DNA of 64,000 nucleotides, taken from assembly GCA_017620475.1 (NCBI GenBank), contig JAFZQI010000004.1, forward strand, positions 1 to 64,000. Direction: 5' to 3'. Numbering within the stretch: the first letter of the stretch is position 1; every line of letters starts with the position of its first letter. This stretch comes from Clostridiales bacterium (lineage in GTDB: Bacteria > Bacillota > Clostridia > Saccharofermentanales > Saccharofermentanaceae). The translations under genes were made by a program, and so were the position numbers. The notes under the pieces are model-generated. The model was given only the letters and a program-made list of their open reading frames with translations, ran no database searches and was not told where the DNA came from. Below are positions 18,501 to 44,968 of this stretch, one piece after another.

Positions 18501-18629
18501 ACCAGCTATAAGTGCCGTATAGGAAAATTCCGTCACTACACGCTGAGTGATCTGATCAACAAGGCGCACAACATCCTCGGTGGTGCGGAATTACGGGAAG
18601 ATCAGAAGGCCAGATATGGTATCAGCTGA
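15522..18629 (+). CDS. TIR-domain / transmembrane / beta-propeller protein
   Basis: A 1035-residue protein. Residues 1-115 are a TIR domain: YNAFISYKH (box 1), RIFRDKEELP (box 2), ALENSDFLIVICS, and SQWVKREIQLF, where Glu93 lies where NAD-cleaving TIR proteins such as SARM1 keep the catalytic glutamate. One membrane helix is at about 190-211. Residues about 215-260 form a helical SIYLANESRKLL...AIQLALAALP segment known from TIR-WD40 and STAND-type proteins. The remaining 770 residues are repeated beta-strand blades of WD40/PQQ type, very acidic. If the N-terminus is cytosolic, the propeller is outside, like a receptor. It stands alone, after a terminator; its stop overlaps the convergent DHH gene. 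Function is inferred only. Confidence 0.85.
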   Translation: MIDYYNAFISYKHAPLDIKVAEHVQAQLEHFHIPGRIRNKTGKKRIQRIFRDKEELPITSDLSETIERALENSDFLIVICSHSTCQSQWVKREIQLFLKNHTRDQILTVLAEGEPSEVIPEELLKDEKPELQPDGSIKLVVHEKEPLSCDYRMPFKKADKEELPRLAAAIIGCSYDELMNRRRQYQMQRIGVLGIILASLALGFSGYMFYSRMRVQRAYQESLRNQSIYLANESRKLLENEQRIEAIQLALAALPSENDERPITAEAVRALTDATLAYMPLSGSSIESVWNYVVSERIRSMTISDDHNTLACSDYSETVTVWNTESHETIIQKTFPKQNVLQIVFANDETLIVLTNTTVYSFDVSKKKELWNYEMKKSGYRNVAPICTSDGESFYLLDLDNTFWHFAAESGDVLDKLSIPKMEDNTYPIYGDFVLSPNDRTIAFVSQIYDGENASIGVIDVKTGDAEFASITSPDVRNIMWVDNDRIAVCGYDIMDSKNMINGDSRILEPNNCRITLFRFDDTLKEVWSSDFIFHEFRAANGFLYMESNDTLAYYCGDVMKIYDCASGEVKNTYDTNRTIVHINDNDGDGLPVFITEDGALGSPLMSAGPDTISFSFELVNNIDMVLVGGGVYVLRTNESKIYYYDVFVSDEEWEELDEDVLIAMPDLDYFLDDDYLVCSYPLDMSTHIVAYDLADESLLWDITLEDVYSSSCTVLGVREDTLYVLCQYHVDFSCTYLLSLSMEDGEEIDSQVLTYYIGRIESAVSFEGEYLTYIYKRNGGKINQIGLLNILTGDEEYYDLPFNTCNAKCAPVYFPQANAIYYADQDEGEYIIDAESGDWVEVDLPDEWSGTNIVEVNTAGDKWVIADTNQILFVDGDGEVEQELNCVGRQAIGIMFWKEKKTEQMLVVFMDGTMYRYDASDGKFLGSLSVETYELENLPATMIMDEKNHTLFIQTGFITDVIDIDSWYEVAVVQNSLGYHAPSDQFFAYSYETSYKCRIGKFRHYTLSDLINKAHNILGGAELREDQKARYGIS

Positions 18630-20112
18630 CGGTTTCAGAGCGACGGTATAGCTGCGGGAACAAGCTTCCTTTTATGATATAGATATCGTGCATATCCTCG
18701 GCGCGAACTGCGATGTAATCGCCGATGTTGCCAAGATAGTATTTCTCTTCGTCCCATGAAGTGAAAAGCTTGATACAGTGATCAAGAGGCTTAGCATAAA
18801 TGAGTCCGCCACCGTGGCTGATCACGGCCTGTGCATATTTCATGACATCTTTTCTTTCGCCTGTAGCGATATCCTTTATGCTCGGCGAGTAATCAAATTT
18901 GCGTGAATAGGGACGGCCTAACTCCTTATATCTATCCAGAAGCTTTTTGCGGTTGATGGGGTAGACTTCACCTTCGATACCGATCATCAGATAACTGTCT
19001 TCCTCAACGGAAATACTGACGTCGCCTTCCAATGTGCGAATCTCGATGCGTGTATTGGGAGGATATATATCGGAAAGATGCACGGTTCCCACTTCCTGAG
19101 GCAATTTCTCATACAGTTCCATATCAGATGGATCAAGATTGGTATCCTTGGCATAAAGAATCGTAAACATCTCAAAGTAAGCCTCCATACGTTCCTGCAG
19201 AAAAGAAGGAGCATCCTTTGTCAGTTTCTCGGGGCGTAGTGCTCCGCCCGCTTTGTAAATGTGTCCGCCACCACCGCCTACGCCGTCAGCCAGAAAAGCA
19301 GCTAATTCGTTGGCATGGACCTCTTTGACACAGCTTCTTACGGAGAATTTGACCTCGTATGAGCTGATATAGTAGGCAAGGCATACATCTACCTTGTCCG
19401 TCTCTAATGAAAAATCACTGATTACGCCCAGAATGTTCGGATCACAGGGCTCGGATTGGATAATCAGGTAGTTGTGTTTATTGAAAAATTCATAGGAGAG
19501 GATCGCCTGTCCCGTGATCTTCAGTTCCCGCAGAGATATGTTGGAGTTACTCATCTTCGTAATCAGGCTCCTTTGGATCGAAAGCGTATCCAGCATATCG
19601 CGGTCAAGCGGGTGGGAAACTTCGGAGAGACGGTTGGTATCCGTATATACCCCGTAATAAAGCGCGGTAGCCAAATCCTTGTTTTCGTTGACGTCGAGGC
19701 CTTCTTCGCGGATCAGATCCCACACCAGAGTGGAACAGCTTCCGAGATTACCACGTACTTCTGAGAGTTCGGGAAGGGGAACCGTGACCTGATGATGATC
19801 TATGATGGAGATAGTCTTCGCAGGTGTCTGCGTAATATTCCGCTGACCGTACTGGCAGTCTACGGTGATCAGTAATTCCGGCTCCGATGTGACCTCTTCC
19901 TCGTATGTAACGGGAATATGAAGTTCATCGAGCATGATCCGAAGGTTGCTTTTGGTGATCTGATTATGGCCGCGATAAATAAAGCGGGCCTTCTTATTGT
20001 TCTTTTCAAAATACCACATGAGGGCGGCGCCACTTGCGAGCGCGTCTGCATCGGGGTTGTCATGACACTGGATCACGATATCGTTGAATGATAGAAGTTG
20101 TGAGAGTTTCAT
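18622..20112 (-). CDS. DHH/DHHA1-family phosphoesterase (NrnA/RecJ-like) with C-terminal extension
   Basis: A 496-residue DHH phosphoesterase. Motif I is HDNPDADALASG (residues 17-28), the DHH motif itself is IIDHHQ (residues 103-108), and DHHA1 carries a GGGGGH near residue 285. Relatives degrade short oligoribonucleotides or cyclic-dinucleotide products such as pApA. Residues beyond about 340 form an extra domain of roughly 150 residues not seen in short NrnA; I do not recognise it. GAAGGAG precedes the ATG. The gene converges with the TIR gene, both stops lying in the shared octamer TCAGCTGA. Confidence 0.85.
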   Translation of the reverse strand: MKLSQLLSFNDIVIQCHDNPDADALASGAALMWYFEKNNKKARFIYRGHNQITKSNLRIMLDELHIPVTYEEEVTSEPELLITVDCQYGQRNITQTPAKTISIIDHHQVTVPLPELSEVRGNLGSCSTLVWDLIREEGLDVNENKDLATALYYGVYTDTNRLSEVSHPLDRDMLDTLSIQRSLITKMSNSNISLRELKITGQAILSYEFFNKHNYLIIQSEPCDPNILGVISDFSLETDKVDVCLAYYISSYEVKFSVRSCVKEVHANELAAFLADGVGGGGGHIYKAGGALRPEKLTKDAPSFLQERMEAYFEMFTILYAKDTNLDPSDMELYEKLPQEVGTVHLSDIYPPNTRIEIRTLEGDVSISVEEDSYLMIGIEGEVYPINRKKLLDRYKELGRPYSRKFDYSPSIKDIATGERKDVMKYAQAVISHGGGLIYAKPLDHCIKLFTSWDEEKYYLGNIGDYIAVRAEDMHDIYIIKGSLFPQLYRRSETVS

Positions 20113-20215
20113 TAGACTGCTCCTTCGTAGAAGATCTTTTATATTTTACCACTCTTCTACTCGTGTGGGAACGAGACGCCGGTTCGGGATACTTTATCCG
20201 GAGGGAAAAACGCTA

Positions 20216-39138: not shown

Positions 39139-40215
39139 TCAATCTACCTTCGTGACCCAGCCGAACTTATCTTCCACTTTACCACTCTGAATACCGGTGA
39201 TCGTGTCGTAGAATTTCTGCGTGATCGGTCCGATCTCGCCATTGTTGATTGTGAAAACGGTATCTTCATACTTGAGTTCGCCGACTGGAGAAACAACTGC
39301 TGCTGTACCGCAGCCGAAGCACTCCTGCATGCGTCCGGACTTACCGGCTTCGATAACCTCGTCGATGGAGATCTTTCTCTCTTCGACCTCAAGTCCCATG
39401 TCCTTGGCGATCTCGATGCAGGATCTTCTTGTGATACCCGGCAGGATAGAACCGGCAGCGAGGGAAGGAGTAACGAGCTTACCGTCGATGATGAACATGA
39501 TGTTCATGGCGCCAACTTCCTCGATGTATTTCTGTTCTACGCCATCGAGCCAGAGTACCTGCTCGTAACCTGAGTCATGAGCGATCGTCTGGGCGATCAG
39601 GGAGCATCCGTAGTTACCTGCGCACTTGGTAAAACCTGTACCGCCACGAACCGCACGAACGTACTTGTCTTCCACGTAGATCTTAACCGGCTGGATACCA
39701 TGTGCATAATAAGCGCCGGAAGGTGAGAGCAGAATGAAGAACTTGTATGTGTTCGAAGGACGCACGCCGAGATACGGATCAGTTGCGATAACGAACGGAC
39801 GGATATACATGGACTCGCCTTTGCCGGACGGGATCCAATCCTTGTCGATTTCAACGAGCTTCTTCGTAGCATATACGCAGAAGTCAACATCGACCTTCGG
39901 AATTACGAGACGGTCGTTGCTGTTATTCATACGCTCGAAGTTGCAAGCAGGACGGAAAAGGTTGATGGAACCGTCTTCGCACTTGTATGCCTTCAAACCT
40001 TCAAATACGGCCTGACCATAATGGAATACCATGGCAGACGGCTCGATTTCGAAAGGTCCGTAAGGTACGATCCTCGGATTGATCCATCCCTGTCCTTCAA
40101 CATAGTCCATGACGAACATGTGGTCAGAGAAGATGTGACCGAACGGCAACGGCTGGCCCGGCTGGGGTTTTTGTCTTGGTGAGGTTGTCTTAGTAACCGA
40201 AATTTCTGGGAACAT
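39139..40215 (-). CDS. ilvE: Branched-chain amino acid aminotransferase
   Basis: A 358-residue class IV PLP aminotransferase of the large-type IlvE group. GTGFTKCAGNYGCSL contains the PLP lysine, and the substrate-domain signatures (GPFEIEPSAMVFHYGQAVFEG, then EEVGAMNIMFI) are present. It interconverts Leu, Ile, Val with their 2-oxoacids, which the 2-oxoacid oxidoreductase at the window start may also use. The leader (about 40216-40440) contains no T-box that I can see. The ribosome binding site is AGGAGG. Confidence 0.95.
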   Translation of the reverse strand: MFPEISVTKTTSPRQKPQPGQPLPFGHIFSDHMFVMDYVEGQGWINPRIVPYGPFEIEPSAMVFHYGQAVFEGLKAYKCEDGSINLFRPACNFERMNNSNDRLVIPKVDVDFCVYATKKLVEIDKDWIPSGKGESMYIRPFVIATDPYLGVRPSNTYKFFILLSPSGAYYAHGIQPVKIYVEDKYVRAVRGGTGFTKCAGNYGCSLIAQTIAHDSGYEQVLWLDGVEQKYIEEVGAMNIMFIIDGKLVTPSLAAGSILPGITRRSCIEIAKDMGLEVEERKISIDEVIEAGKSGRMQECFGCGTAAVVSPVGELKYEDTVFTINNGEIGPITQKFYDTITGIQSGKVEDKFGWVTKVD

Positions 40216-40462: not shown

Positions 40463-41653
40463 ATGCGTCTGAATCATGTGGATCTTGTTGATCCGTCCTT
40501 TGCCTTGCAGAAAGATATGACGATCACCATTGAACATGGAAAAATCGAGAACATAGCAAAGGAGATTTTATCTGTTCCTGCAGATGAAGAGGAGTATGAT
40601 CTTTCCGGATTAATACTGATCCCCGGCTTCATCGATCTTCATGTACATGGTGCTATGGGGGCGGATACTTCCGACGGGACGGAAGATGCAATAGCCAGAG
40701 TGGCATCATATCTGGCTGAACACGGAGTGACCTCTTTCTGCCCGACGACGATGATGATTCCGAAGGACAGTCTCGAGCGTGTTTTGATTGCATCAGAGCA
40801 TTATGCGCGTGAGGAAAGAAATGGCGCTAAAACGCTGGGCGTGCGGTTGGAGGGTCCTTTTCTATCGAAAGAAAAGTGCGGAGTGCAGAATACGGAATAT
40901 GCAATGTTACCATCGGAAGAGTATGTAACGGAGCTGCTTAAGGGGTTTCCGAAAGACCTGATCTCCATCATCGATATCGCTCCGGAACTGGACGGCGCCA
41001 TGGATTTTATCCGTAGCCTGAAAAATGATTATGTCCTCTCCTGTGCACATACGTCTGCCACATTCCAGTGCTGCAAGGAGGCTATTGCCGCGGGAATGAA
41101 ACATGGGACACACTTGTTCAATGCAATGAATGTCATGCATCATCATGAACCGGGTGCGGTGGGGGCATTGCTGGATGATCCTTCCGTAACTTGTGAACTG
41201 ATCTGTGACGGGCTTCATGTTCATCCGGCAGTGCTTAAAATCGCGATTGCTGTTCTTGGGGAGGACCGTGCGGTTGTGGTATCGGATTCAATGAGAGCTG
41301 CCGGCATGCCGGATGGCGAGTATGACCTGGGAGGAAAAACTGTACGAGTGACGAATGGCCGTACTGATTCCGGAGACGGAAGACTTGCGGGAAGTACGAC
41401 GAACATCCACACTGAATTCCTCAACCTGCTTAAGCTCGGGTTTCCTCTTAAGACTGCACTTAAGGCGTGTACGCTTAACCCGGCTAAGGTCATCGGTAAG
41501 GACAAAGAAACCGGCACCCTGGAAATCGGCAAATACGCGGATATGGTTGCAATGGATCAGGAATACCGCATCCGTAAGGTGTGGGTGAATGGCCGGCTGG
41601 TGAAAGATATGAATGTGGAAGAAATGAAAAAGGAAACGGAAGACCGGGCATGA
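40463..41653 (+). CDS. nagA: N-acetylglucosamine-6-phosphate deacetylase
   Basis: A 396-residue amidohydrolase that converts GlcNAc-6-phosphate to glucosamine-6-phosphate and acetate. Metal-binding IDLHVHGAMGADTSDG, HGTHLFNAM, HHEPGAVGA and a final VVVSDSMRAAG (with the catalytic Asp) are all there. GGGAGGAG precedes the ATG. nagB is not adjacent. The next gene, a Crp/Fnr-type regulator, overlaps by four bases (ATGA), so both are co-expressed and amino-sugar recycling may be coupled to that regulator. Confidence 0.95.
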   Translation: MRLNHVDLVDPSFALQKDMTITIEHGKIENIAKEILSVPADEEEYDLSGLILIPGFIDLHVHGAMGADTSDGTEDAIARVASYLAEHGVTSFCPTTMMIPKDSLERVLIASEHYAREERNGAKTLGVRLEGPFLSKEKCGVQNTEYAMLPSEEYVTELLKGFPKDLISIIDIAPELDGAMDFIRSLKNDYVLSCAHTSATFQCCKEAIAAGMKHGTHLFNAMNVMHHHEPGAVGALLDDPSVTCELICDGLHVHPAVLKIAIAVLGEDRAVVVSDSMRAAGMPDGEYDLGGKTVRVTNGRTDSGDGRLAGSTTNIHTEFLNLLKLGFPLKTALKACTLNPAKVIGKDKETGTLEIGKYADMVAMDQEYRIRKVWVNGRLVKDMNVEEMKKETEDRA

Positions 41654-42315
41654 AAGACGTATTGGAAAACACGGTATTATTCCGGCAATTGGATGAATCT
41701 GCTAAGAAATGCTGTCTGTCCTATCTCCGTGCGCGCAAAGTCTCCCGCGGGGAACTGATCGTGCGGGAGGGAGAGGTGCATGCAGGATTGATCCTCCTGG
41801 TTAAGGGCGAGGCGGCCGTACAGAAGTACACATCCGGAGGAGATTATTCCACTATTTCGCTTTTGCTTCCCGGAGACTGCTTCGGCGAAGAGACGGTAGT
41901 CAACGGTAAGGAAAAATGTGCGTTTACGCTGGAAGCTGTTTCTGATGTGGAGTTTCTGTATATTACCGCCGAGAATCTCCTCTTACTGATGGAGAAATAC
42001 CCCCGGGTAAAAGACGGGTTCATGAGTGTCCTTTCCGATCGTATCCGCATTCAGGCTATGCAGATCACTATCCTTTCGCAAAAGAGTGTAAGGCAGAAGA
42101 TCGTCTATTATTTGTTGATGCTTCGGCAAAGACAGGGAACGGAGAAGGTATGTCTTCCCGGATCGAGGGAAGTAGTTTCCAAACTCCTTGCGATGCCCAG
42201 ACAAAGCTTCACCCGTGAATTGATGATGATGGAGAAAGAGGGCCTGATCAGTATTACCGGAAGAAATATTGCTTTTTCGGATCCGTCGGCCCTGAAGAAA
42301 TGTATCGGGGAATGA
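41650..42315 (+). CDS. Crp/Fnr-family transcriptional regulator
   Basis: A 221-residue protein with an N-terminal cyclic-nucleotide-binding fold (residues about 12-125: LIVREGEVHAGLILLVKGEA) and a C-terminal winged helix (SREVVSKLLAMPRQSFTREL). No cysteine cluster for an iron-sulfur sensor of FNR type is obvious, so the effector is unknown. The start is the ATG at 41650 overlapping the nagA stop; longer in-frame ORFs upstream lie inside nagA. It may control nagA or its own operon. Confidence 0.85.
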   Translation: MKDVLENTVLFRQLDESAKKCCLSYLRARKVSRGELIVREGEVHAGLILLVKGEAAVQKYTSGGDYSTISLLLPGDCFGEETVVNGKEKCAFTLEAVSDVEFLYITAENLLLLMEKYPRVKDGFMSVLSDRIRIQAMQITILSQKSVRQKIVYYLLMLRQRQGTEKVCLPGSREVVSKLLAMPRQSFTRELMMMEKEGLISITGRNIAFSDPSALKKCIGE

Positions 42316-42373
42316 AGAATACCCGTCAAATGTGGTATAATTAAGAGACATCTAAGGGAAGGAGAATGACGAC

Positions 42374-43792
42374 ATGTTTGAGAAGCTCACAGATTTTATT
42401 CGTGAAATATTCTCCAGCCTTGATAGTGGGTACATGTTTTTCGGCGGTCCGCTGGATCTGGTGCGGTATCTTATCGATATCGTTTTGGTTACTTTCATTC
42501 TCTATAATATCCTCAAGATCATCCGTGATACCCGTGCCTGGCAGCTGCTGAAGGGCGTAATCCTTATTCTTGCTTTCATCTTGTTCTGTAGCTTCCTGGG
42601 CCTCGAGATGGTCGGTTACATCTTCAATAAACTCCTATACATCGTTGCTATACTGTTCGTAGTTATTTTCCAGCCGGAATTGCGTCATGCTCTGGAGACG
42701 GTAGGTCTAAAGTCGTTCGCGTCTTTCTCCAGTGTGCTTTTGAATGACAATTCTGATGAACAGCTGCGATATGTTTCGATGGTAGATGAGATTGTCAAGG
42801 CCTGCACGGAGATGAGCAAGACCTATACAGGTGCGATCATGCTTCTGGAAAGAACAACAAAGCTCGGCGATCTTCTTAAACAGGAGAATGTCGTGCGTCT
42901 GGACTCATCGGTAACCAATTCGATGCTTCAGTCTATTTTCTACAAAGGATCTCCTATGCATGATGGTGCGCTTCTTATCCGTGATGGAAGGATCATTGCG
43001 GCACGCTGCCATGTTCCGCTTTCAGAGACATTCCATATGATGGAGAGATACGGCACACGGCACAGAGCCGCAGTGGGCGCGAGTGAGATCGGCGATACGA
43101 TAGCCGTCGTCGTTTCGGAAGAGCGCGGAACCATGTCGATCGCGGTAGATGGCGTCCTTTATGAGATGAAGGATGGACAGGAACTCCGTAAGAACCTTTA
43201 CTATCTGCTGGGCCTTACTTCCGGCAATGGACGGCTTGCGATCCGCGGGAAGAAGCACGGAAAGAAGAACAATAAGAAGCAGCTTGTAACCGAGAGTGCG
43301 GTTTCCGAGCCGGTAACGGTCGCTAGTACAACAGTTGCTGCGGCGGAGAAGGAAGAGGAAACGCTTCCGGTCGTTGCTAAGCGCAAGAAGGTTAAAAAGA
43401 GCGGCAAGCGTTCAAGAAATGCAGTGCTGCTTCTGGTGTCGTTCCTTTTCTCACTGGTACTTTGGATGTATATTCAGGTTACGACCAATCCGGTTACGCA
43501 GAAGACATATACCTTACAGCTTCAGTTTGAGAATTACCAGAAACTTGAAGAGAAGAATCTGGCCATTACATTACCCGTTGAGAACGTGACCGTAAGGCTG
43601 GTTGGCCGTAAGAATGATCTGGAGAAACTAACGGCCTCCGACCTGTCGGCATACATCGATCTTTCTACTGTAGAGGAGACCGGTTCCGTAAGATTGAATG
43701 TAAATATCAAGTGTGATGAGAATGTGTATTACCGTGTCGAGTTACAGAATCCACAAGATATTCCGGTGTCGATTTCGACAAAGACTTCCTAA
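42374..43792 (+). CDS. Diadenylate cyclase fused to a YbbR (CdaR-like) domain
   Basis: A 472-residue fusion. Residues 1-100 hold three membrane helices (about 30-50, 57-77, 84-103) as in CdaA. The DAC domain (about 105-275) keeps DGA (residues 197-199) and GTRHR (227-231), the motifs that make c-di-AMP from two ATP. A Lys/Ala/Glu linker follows, then a fourth membrane helix (about 350-368) and one YbbR domain (about 373-470), the CdaR-type unit. In most Firmicutes cdaA and cdaR are separate genes and CdaR has several YbbR repeats. Here the cyclase and its probable regulator are one chain. The gene begins 58 bases after the Crp gene. Confidence 0.92.
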   Translation: MFEKLTDFIREIFSSLDSGYMFFGGPLDLVRYLIDIVLVTFILYNILKIIRDTRAWQLLKGVILILAFILFCSFLGLEMVGYIFNKLLYIVAILFVVIFQPELRHALETVGLKSFASFSSVLLNDNSDEQLRYVSMVDEIVKACTEMSKTYTGAIMLLERTTKLGDLLKQENVVRLDSSVTNSMLQSIFYKGSPMHDGALLIRDGRIIAARCHVPLSETFHMMERYGTRHRAAVGASEIGDTIAVVVSEERGTMSIAVDGVLYEMKDGQELRKNLYYLLGLTSGNGRLAIRGKKHGKKNNKKQLVTESAVSEPVTVASTTVAAAEKEEETLPVVAKRKKVKKSGKRSRNAVLLLVSFLFSLVLWMYIQVTTNPVTQKTYTLQLQFENYQKLEEKNLAITLPVENVTVRLVGRKNDLEKLTASDLSAYIDLSTVEETGSVRLNVNIKCDENVYYRVELQNPQDIPVSISTKTS

Positions 43793-43816: not shown

Positions 43817-44968
43817 TTACAGTGCGGCGATGCATTGCATGGCCTGTTCGATGCTTTCTGAAATCGAGTAATTCCGATAACAGGCCAGACGTCCGAGAAG
43901 GAATAAAGAAGGATAATTCTTCGCAAGTTCAAGATACTGCGAATACAGTTTCCGGTTTTTCTCGGCCAGATCCGGTTCAAAAGGGTCTTCCCATCCATTA
44001 ACGACAGAGGAGTAGGGCGATTCCATACAAAGTGTAGTGTGCCCGGAAATATCCTGTAAAGTAATATGCTTGCTTTCCGTAATACGTACATATTCCGAAC
44101 CTTTCGGCATGACGATGACCGCTGATTCGTTGGAAAAATCTGTCTGCAGATCACGAATGGTGATCTTGGTCGTACGGAATGGGAGAGCCCCCAGCTTATA
44201 ACCGAACAGGCGGTCCAAAGGCTGTGTGTAGATTACGGGCCCCTTGAACGGCGCGCCATCTAAAAGGATCGAAGAGGATTCTTCGTGAATGGAGATACGG
44301 GACAGCGGACTGGTATCGTAATACGCTGTAATCGCCGGATGATTGATCATGTTCTCCAGAAGGGAGGTAAACCCCTGAATGGGCATGGCTTGAAAGCTGT
44401 CTTTGTAATAGCAGTCGTCTGTTCCGAGATCTACCATATCATCATTCTCATAGGAGTCGTCCAAAGGGGAGAAGGAGCTTCCGTCCTTAGTGTTGACGTG
44501 AAGTGTGAGGATGTTTTCCACGATAAAACGCCCCAGATCGATCAGCTTCGAATCCTTGGATTTCATAAGAAGATCAACAGGGATCCTTTCCTGATCCGGA
44601 AAATGCGCAGTCAGCCGAGAAAGCAGGGAAGACGCCTGTTTCTCTCCGAAAAGAATTTCCAGTGAACGTGCATTAAGAGGAAGCGGAACCGTTTTATTGT
44701 TGATCGTTGCCAGTACACGGTGCCGATATGGATAGAATGCGCCGAATCTCTTAAGAAAGCGGAAGACCTCCTCATTATCCGTGTGGAGGATGTGAGGTCC
44801 TCTCGGATTGATGCGGATGCCGTTAGGACGGATCTCATCGAAAAGCGCCCCTCCGATGTGACATTCCCGTTCGAAACAGGTAACCTGATAGCCCGCATCA
44901 GCCAGCATCCGGGCTGCTGTACAGCCGGAGATCCCCAATCCTAATACTAATGCGCTTTTTCGTGCCAT
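43817..44968 (-). CDS. glf: UDP-galactopyranose mutase
   Basis: A 383-residue flavoprotein. The FAD-binding ALVLGLGISGCTAARMLADA (residues 6-25) and HIGGALFDE, NPRGPHILHTD, and a later RPLDR-like FAD/substrate region identify Glf, which interconverts UDP-galactopyranose and UDP-galactofuranose for cell-surface glycans. It converges with the diadenylate cyclase gene across a 24-base gap. No glycan cluster lies around it. Confidence 0.9.
   Translation of the reverse strand: MARKSALVLGLGISGCTAARMLADAGYQVTCFERECHIGGALFDEIRPNGIRINPRGPHILHTDNEEVFRFLKRFGAFYPYRHRVLATINNKTVPLPLNARSLEILFGEKQASSLLSRLTAHFPDQERIPVDLLMKSKDSKLIDLGRFIVENILTLHVNTKDGSSFSPLDDSYENDDMVDLGTDDCYYKDSFQAMPIQGFTSLLENMINHPAITAYYDTSPLSRISIHEESSSILLDGAPFKGPVIYTQPLDRLFGYKLGALPFRTTKITIRDLQTDFSNESAVIVMPKGSEYVRITESKHITLQDISGHTTLCMESPYSSVVNGWEDPFEPDLAEKNRKLYSQYLELAKNYPSLFLLGRLACYRNYSISESIEQAMQCIAAL

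Follow-up and report, generated by a model that had tools for sequence, protein, structure and literature searches.

Domain layout of the fused gene

The window, by which we mean the whole 64,000-nucleotide stretch of DNA analyzed here, carries a fused cdaA-cdaR gene on its forward strand at positions 42374-43792. A Shine-Dalgarno-like AGGAGA (42360-42365, +), found by direct reading of the sequence, sits 8 bases 5' of the ATG start codon, and the frame then runs for 472 amino acids without an internal stop. The original prediction held that a single polypeptide here joins a diadenylate cyclase to a YbbR domain, and this is confirmed by the uninterrupted open reading frame, in which the Pfam families CdaA_N, DAC, and YbbR all score above their curated cut-offs. 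The CdaA_N transmembrane part covers residues 31-102 (42464-42679, +; PF19293, 39.2 bits against a cut-off of 23.8) and the DAC catalytic domain residues 142-261 (42797-43156, +; PF02457, 118.1 bits against 27). NCBIfam TIGR00159, "diadenylate cyclase CdaA", matches the protein at 189.8 bits, one bit above its cut-off of 188.8. The catalytic motifs of DAC proteins, given as DGA, GxRHR, and SEE in the portion of PMC7288161 consulted, are present as DGA at residues 197-199 and GTRHR at 227-231, both as predicted, together with SEE at 248-250. D197, R229, H230, S248, and E250 are invariant among 30 fused members, and T228 is nearly so. Judged by its sequence, the first part of the protein is a membrane diadenylate cyclase of the CdaA type whose catalytic motifs are in place.

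The cyclase is followed by a lysine-rich disordered linker (residues 283-342; 43220-43399, +; pLDDT below 50), a fourth transmembrane helix (residues 343-371; 43400-43486, +; AlphaFold2 and hydropathy), and one YbbR domain (residues 374-469; 43493-43780, +; Pfam PF07949, AlphaFold2, and PDB fold match). The hydropathy profile contains a stretch at residues 25-51, a long stretch at 53-105 that corresponds to two helices, and a final stretch at 347-371, so that hydropathy, Pfam, and AlphaFold2 together bear out the predicted layout of three helices, DAC domain, linker, fourth helix, and single YbbR domain. In an alignment of the 30 fused proteins, helix 4 leads into a conserved stretch, LWxYxQVTxNPV. 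The domain search places the Pfam YbbR match at residues 394-446, inside the region 373-470 where it was expected, with 25.9 bits against a cut-off of 22.3 and 30.0 bits when the tail is scanned by itself. Neither Pfam nor AlphaFold2 finds a further YbbR repeat in the window protein, whose frame ends after residue 472. Residues 283-345, just ahead of helix 4, hold 16 K/R against 6 D/E; given this excess and the helix count, the YbbR domain is predicted to lie outside the membrane, on its outer face.

An AlphaFold2 model of the full-length protein, built on 30 relatives, shows the linker at about residues 283-343 with pLDDT below 50, the helix at 343-371, and a beta-rich domain at 374-469. The model has a mean pLDDT of 76.9 and a pTM of 0.48, at which the single domains are reliable but their mutual packing is not; this applies also to the way helix 4 sits against helices 1-3. 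Folded alone, the tail reaches a mean pLDDT of 92.5, and its top PDB match is 5hqh, the YbbR domain of Listeria lmo2119 (E = 2.1e-5, TM 0.80 on the target); it also matches 3lyw, a YbbR domain of Desulfitobacterium (E = 1.0e-4). The cyclase part resembles solved CdaA structures, with a PDB fold match to 8ogk (E = 4.8e-15).

Distribution and origin of the fusion

We surveyed the order Saccharofermentanales with a profile made from 30 fused proteins of four families (alignment A1). The fusion lies in a single frame in 168 of 188 genomes; 11 hold only fragments, and 9 have no match to the profile. The window's own family accounts for 105 fused genomes out of 115, with fragments only in 5 (G010, G019, G101, G112, and G114) and no match in another 5, and the other three families for 63 of 73, with 6 fragmentary and 4 unmatched. 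Thirteen of these 63 were matched as two pieces of one frame, and all 13 are free of stops. Because the open-frame figure given by the search can read across stops, fusions were counted by stop-free matches or by stop-to-stop ORFs. Two genomes with one stop within the match (G045 and G135) are counted among the fused since in G046 and G048 a similar stop falls where the match ends (L014 and L004, both open frames). Of the 30 A1 proteins, 28 match the Pfam YbbR model at E 0.01, or 29 with tails scanned alone; at E 0.001 the model is detected in 61 of the 115 family genomes, and we read the gap between this figure and the 105 found by the A1 profile as a matter of sensitivity. The named relatives are MAGs, many from rumen or gut, that carry the labels Clostridiales, Mageeibacillus sp., Ruminococcaceae, and Candidatus Scatonaster coprocaballi. 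In the NCBI taxonomy, Mageeibacillus belongs to Oscillospiraceae and Scatonaster to Saccharofermentanaceae, Saccharofermentanales; the Scatonaster placement is our ground for assigning the window's order to Saccharofermentanales. The fusion is a fixed trait of the whole order Saccharofermentanales and not an oddity of one genome.

The original prediction had allowed for a separate cdaR elsewhere in the genome combined with a tail that is no YbbR domain at all. The tail does match Pfam YbbR, and no other YbbR/CdaR match was found in the source genome (G000), a MAG of 2.68 Mb in 50 contigs that is 81.6% complete. Two apparent cases of separate genes among close relatives were rejected. A stand-alone cyclase of 273 residues in G114 is explained by a contig end (L126). 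A separate cdaA-cdaR pair within the genus (L117, contig C64 of G108) consists of a stand-alone cdaA and a cdaR with several YbbR domains, which share their 3.4-kb contig with an epimerase-like ORF. The MAG has 6% contamination and also carries the fusion, and the contig is probably a stray one. In one MAG with an intact copy of the fused gene (L038), the gene occurs once more at L048 2197-3643 (also seen as L012), where it is broken into two frames of 121 and 427 residues. We also note a second YbbR match of 22.2 bits in a 1264-residue frame of G061.

A class-wide draw took in 391 genomes, 16 of them from the order. These 16 all carry the fusion unbroken, and the other 134 places among the best 150 matches listed show no fusion. 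A phylum-wide draw of 398 genomes likewise gave no fusion at the 149 places besides the window among its best 150 matches listed. The two lists share 11 genomes of the same class, and fused proteins would be expected near the top of both. The scan of relatives finds the order fused and no fusion at the places listed outside it. Several long frames were set aside: G312 (734 residues) and G286 (527 residues) in the class search proved to be two adjacent genes once the DNA was read; G235, G198, and G812 (frames of 378-395 residues) have a separate CdaR downstream; and frames of 704-706 residues in one genus of the phylum search were rejected as fusions where the DNA was read, which covered the genus apart from G831 and G875. 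At the loci read (L113, L114, L136, L137, and L139), cdaA and cdaR are adjacent with one stop codon between them. Since a single in-frame stop is the sole barrier between the two genes in several outside lineages, a fusion could arise by one change.

The source of the tail was sought at 25 loci where cdaA is a gene of its own (from 24 genomes, as L100 and L121 are the same gene; L117 of G108 is included). All 25 carry a stand-alone CdaR-like ORF on the same stretch, and in all 25 the best alignment of the fused tail is with the CdaR N-terminus, that is, its helix and first YbbR domain, at 29.8-81.0 bits as against 27.3 bits or less for any other repeat. This supports the predicted nature of the tail as a CdaR-type module joined to CdaA and points to a fused gene composed of cdaA and the 5' part of cdaR, the later repeats having been lost. 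On these alignments the tail is best described as the CdaR transmembrane helix plus the first YbbR domain, with the other YbbR repeats gone. In a tree of the CdaA part, from a short search without bootstrap, a single branch with SH-aLRT 99 divides 30 fused proteins from 25 separate ones (L117 among the latter), a topology that fits a single origin of the fusion at the base of Saccharofermentanales.

Linker length varies from 23 to 120 residues across the 30 A1 members. Comparison of 14 genes of the window's genus (91 pairs) gave median dN/dS values of 0.04 in the cyclase, 0.33 in the linker, and 0.14 in the tail (helix 4 plus YbbR); because synonymous sites are near saturation, these values come only from pairs with dS below 3 (72 of 91 for the cyclase, 43 of 91 for the linker, and 65 of 91 for the tail). 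Five tail residues, W364, P373, R412, A426, and P460, are kept in 30 of 30 members from four families. The dN/dS values indicate that the tail is still under purifying selection, and the fusion has been maintained by selection since its origin.

Neighboring genes and the c-di-AMP setting

As originally predicted, glmM does not adjoin the fusion in the source genome; it lies on a separate contig, C12, at 83159-84487. The two genes are on different contigs in all 10 members of the window's genus tested. Three sister families include 64 genomes in which both fusion and glmM were found, and in 59 of these glmM is directly downstream, on the same strand and no more than 500 bases away (median gap 105 bases). 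In the window's genus glmM has moved away, while the sister families mostly keep it next door. Two genomes of family f3 (G153 and G154) possess the fused cyclase, but their best glmM matches, 143 and 165 bits, are below the family cut-off; a replacement of GlmM is possible in these two.

Upstream of the fusion in the window are nagA (40463-41653, +; N-acetylglucosamine-6-phosphate deacetylase, NCBIfam TIGR00221, 291.4 bits) and a gene for a Crp/Fnr-type regulator (41581-42315, +; Pfam cNMP_binding and HTH_Crp_2). Of 22 named loci, 19 have nagA upstream and 19 have the regulator there; the regulator is also found at this position in three genomes from other families (G154, G164, and G181). The place that glmM has in the sister families is occupied by a convergent UDP-galactopyranose mutase-like gene (43817-44968, -; Pfam GLF), which is present in 20 of the 22 loci. 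The upstream nagA and the downstream glmM of the sister families suggest a link between the fusion and cell-wall sugar supply. Further upstream in the window (39139-40215, -), a branched-chain aminotransferase is 96-99% identical in protein sequence among genus members, and the nearby nagA and glf proteins have 50-74% identity. Recent transfer of the aminotransferase gene was rejected because its third codon positions are 59-71% identical (seven loci), which makes strong constraint the likelier explanation.

The fusion is the sole DAC found in the source genome, and one DAC is present in 173 of the 176 genomes of the order with a DAC match, the exceptions being G095, G026, and G108. With a single cyclase in nearly all of these genomes, the fused enzyme is likely a control point and possibly essential in these bacteria. 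The source MAG contains a PgpH-type 7TM-HD protein; a search of it for RF00379, the c-di-AMP riboswitch, gave no match. A look-up for GdpP gave six DHHA1 matches. The three scanned in detail, RecJ, a short DHH-DHHA1 protein beside truB, and a protein encoded in the window at 18625-20145 (-), lack PAS and GGDEF domains. The last of these is a 506-residue DHH-DHHA1 protein with about 200 residues beyond its two domains and is a possible nucleotide phosphodiesterase.

Proposed working of the fusion and its alternatives

In the two-protein system, CdaR contacts the membrane helices of CdaA and GlmM contacts its cytoplasmic domain, according to the parts of PMC8573169, PMC6368335, and PMC10243994 consulted. 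The sign of CdaR regulation differs among reports, again as far as the consulted parts go: its effect is negative in P. gingivalis (PMC9259658) and positive or limiting in C. trachomatis (PMC12422730), conclusive evidence for a regulatory role is said to be lacking in S. aureus (PMC6368335), and both signs are on record overall (PMC8573169). Taken as a whole, the locus is probably best explained as a natural in-frame fusion of cdaA and the 5' part of cdaR, with the cyclase inside the cell and the YbbR domain outside tuning its activity. The DAC domain would produce c-di-AMP at the inner face of the membrane. Helix 4 would pack on the CdaA helices in the manner proposed for the helix of a separate CdaR. 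The outer YbbR domain would tune the readiness of the cyclase to form active dimers. The disordered linker, at 23-120 residues, would serve as a tether that sets a 1:1 ratio and not as a signal-carrying rod, the signal passing instead via the packed helices. The YbbR part may act as the built-in outside sensor that the original prediction proposed. Points that weigh against this account are the one-bit margin of the TIGR00159 match, the low pTM of the full-length model, the contested regulatory role of CdaR, the lack of an RF00379 match in the MAG, and the Pfam YbbR detection in no more than 61 of the 115 family genomes.

The same features could be read as those of a tail that no longer senses anything, with CdaA and a minimal CdaR locked in a constant state and the YbbR domain merely holding or stabilizing the complex. 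The loss of the later CdaR repeats throughout, the disordered and variable linker, and a tail that evolves faster than the cyclase (dN/dS 0.14 versus 0.04) all suit such a reading, but the purifying selection on the tail and its five residues retained across four families speak against it, and we regard it as unlikely. Far less probable still is that two proteins act as usual because the fusion is cleaved after synthesis or because translation from an internal start yields the tail as well. A long disordered linker could indeed be cut, but the linkers of the 30 members show no apparent conserved cleavage motif, and the window protein has no methionine in residues 283-345 and hence no internal ATG start ahead of helix 4. 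A merger of neighboring genes by sequencing or assembly error, which the original prediction had named as a risk and which a MAG source that is 81.6% complete might invite, was rejected because relatives carry the same fusion; its recurrence in one frame in 168 of 188 genomes of the order, and a sister-family glmM so close downstream (median 105 bases) that there is no room for the rest of cdaR, leave it with practically no likelihood.

Returning to the reading of a cyclase tuned by its own YbbR domain, a stronger form of it, which we put forward tentatively and at somewhat less than even chances, is that the sole c-di-AMP synthase of the order runs with a minimal CdaR (one helix and one YbbR domain, 1:1) as its complete outside input, the other YbbR repeats being dispensable for regulation. 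The fit to one origin and the retention of the fusion in four families argue that CdaA and CdaR work as one unit, and the fusion singles out the helix with the first YbbR domain as what is essential in CdaR. The mode of CdaA regulation by CdaR is described as unclear in the part of PMC8573169 consulted. A typical CdaR comprises several domains and is encoded separately, and the fusion offers a simpler, minimal system in which to study its role as well as a natural single-chain 1:1 construct for structures and assays. In the literature, as far as it was searched in part, we found no description of a DAC-YbbR fusion in Saccharofermentanales or of one with a single YbbR domain. Galperin's 2023 survey of DAC domain architectures may well list DAC + YbbR.

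Compared with the Bacillota operon of CdaA, CdaR (YbbR), and GlmM, the parts and their order are the same, the sister families keep glmM downstream, and the fusion tail corresponds to the CdaR N-terminus. The differences are that cdaA and cdaR form one gene here, that glmM is gone from beside it in the window's genus, and that one YbbR domain replaces the three or four usually carried by CdaR (PMC10243994, in the part consulted). The same part of that source describes CdaA-CdaR fusions in some streptococcal strains (A5LQF8, E1M7C3, and V8IIN0), so the fusion as such is already in print. Compared by description, the streptococcal proteins likewise hold both partners in a single polypeptide; they are large and occur in some strains of one genus, whereas Saccharofermentanales have a short CdaR part and carry the fusion as a fixed trait of the order. 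Set against that account, the short order-wide form is a new variant.
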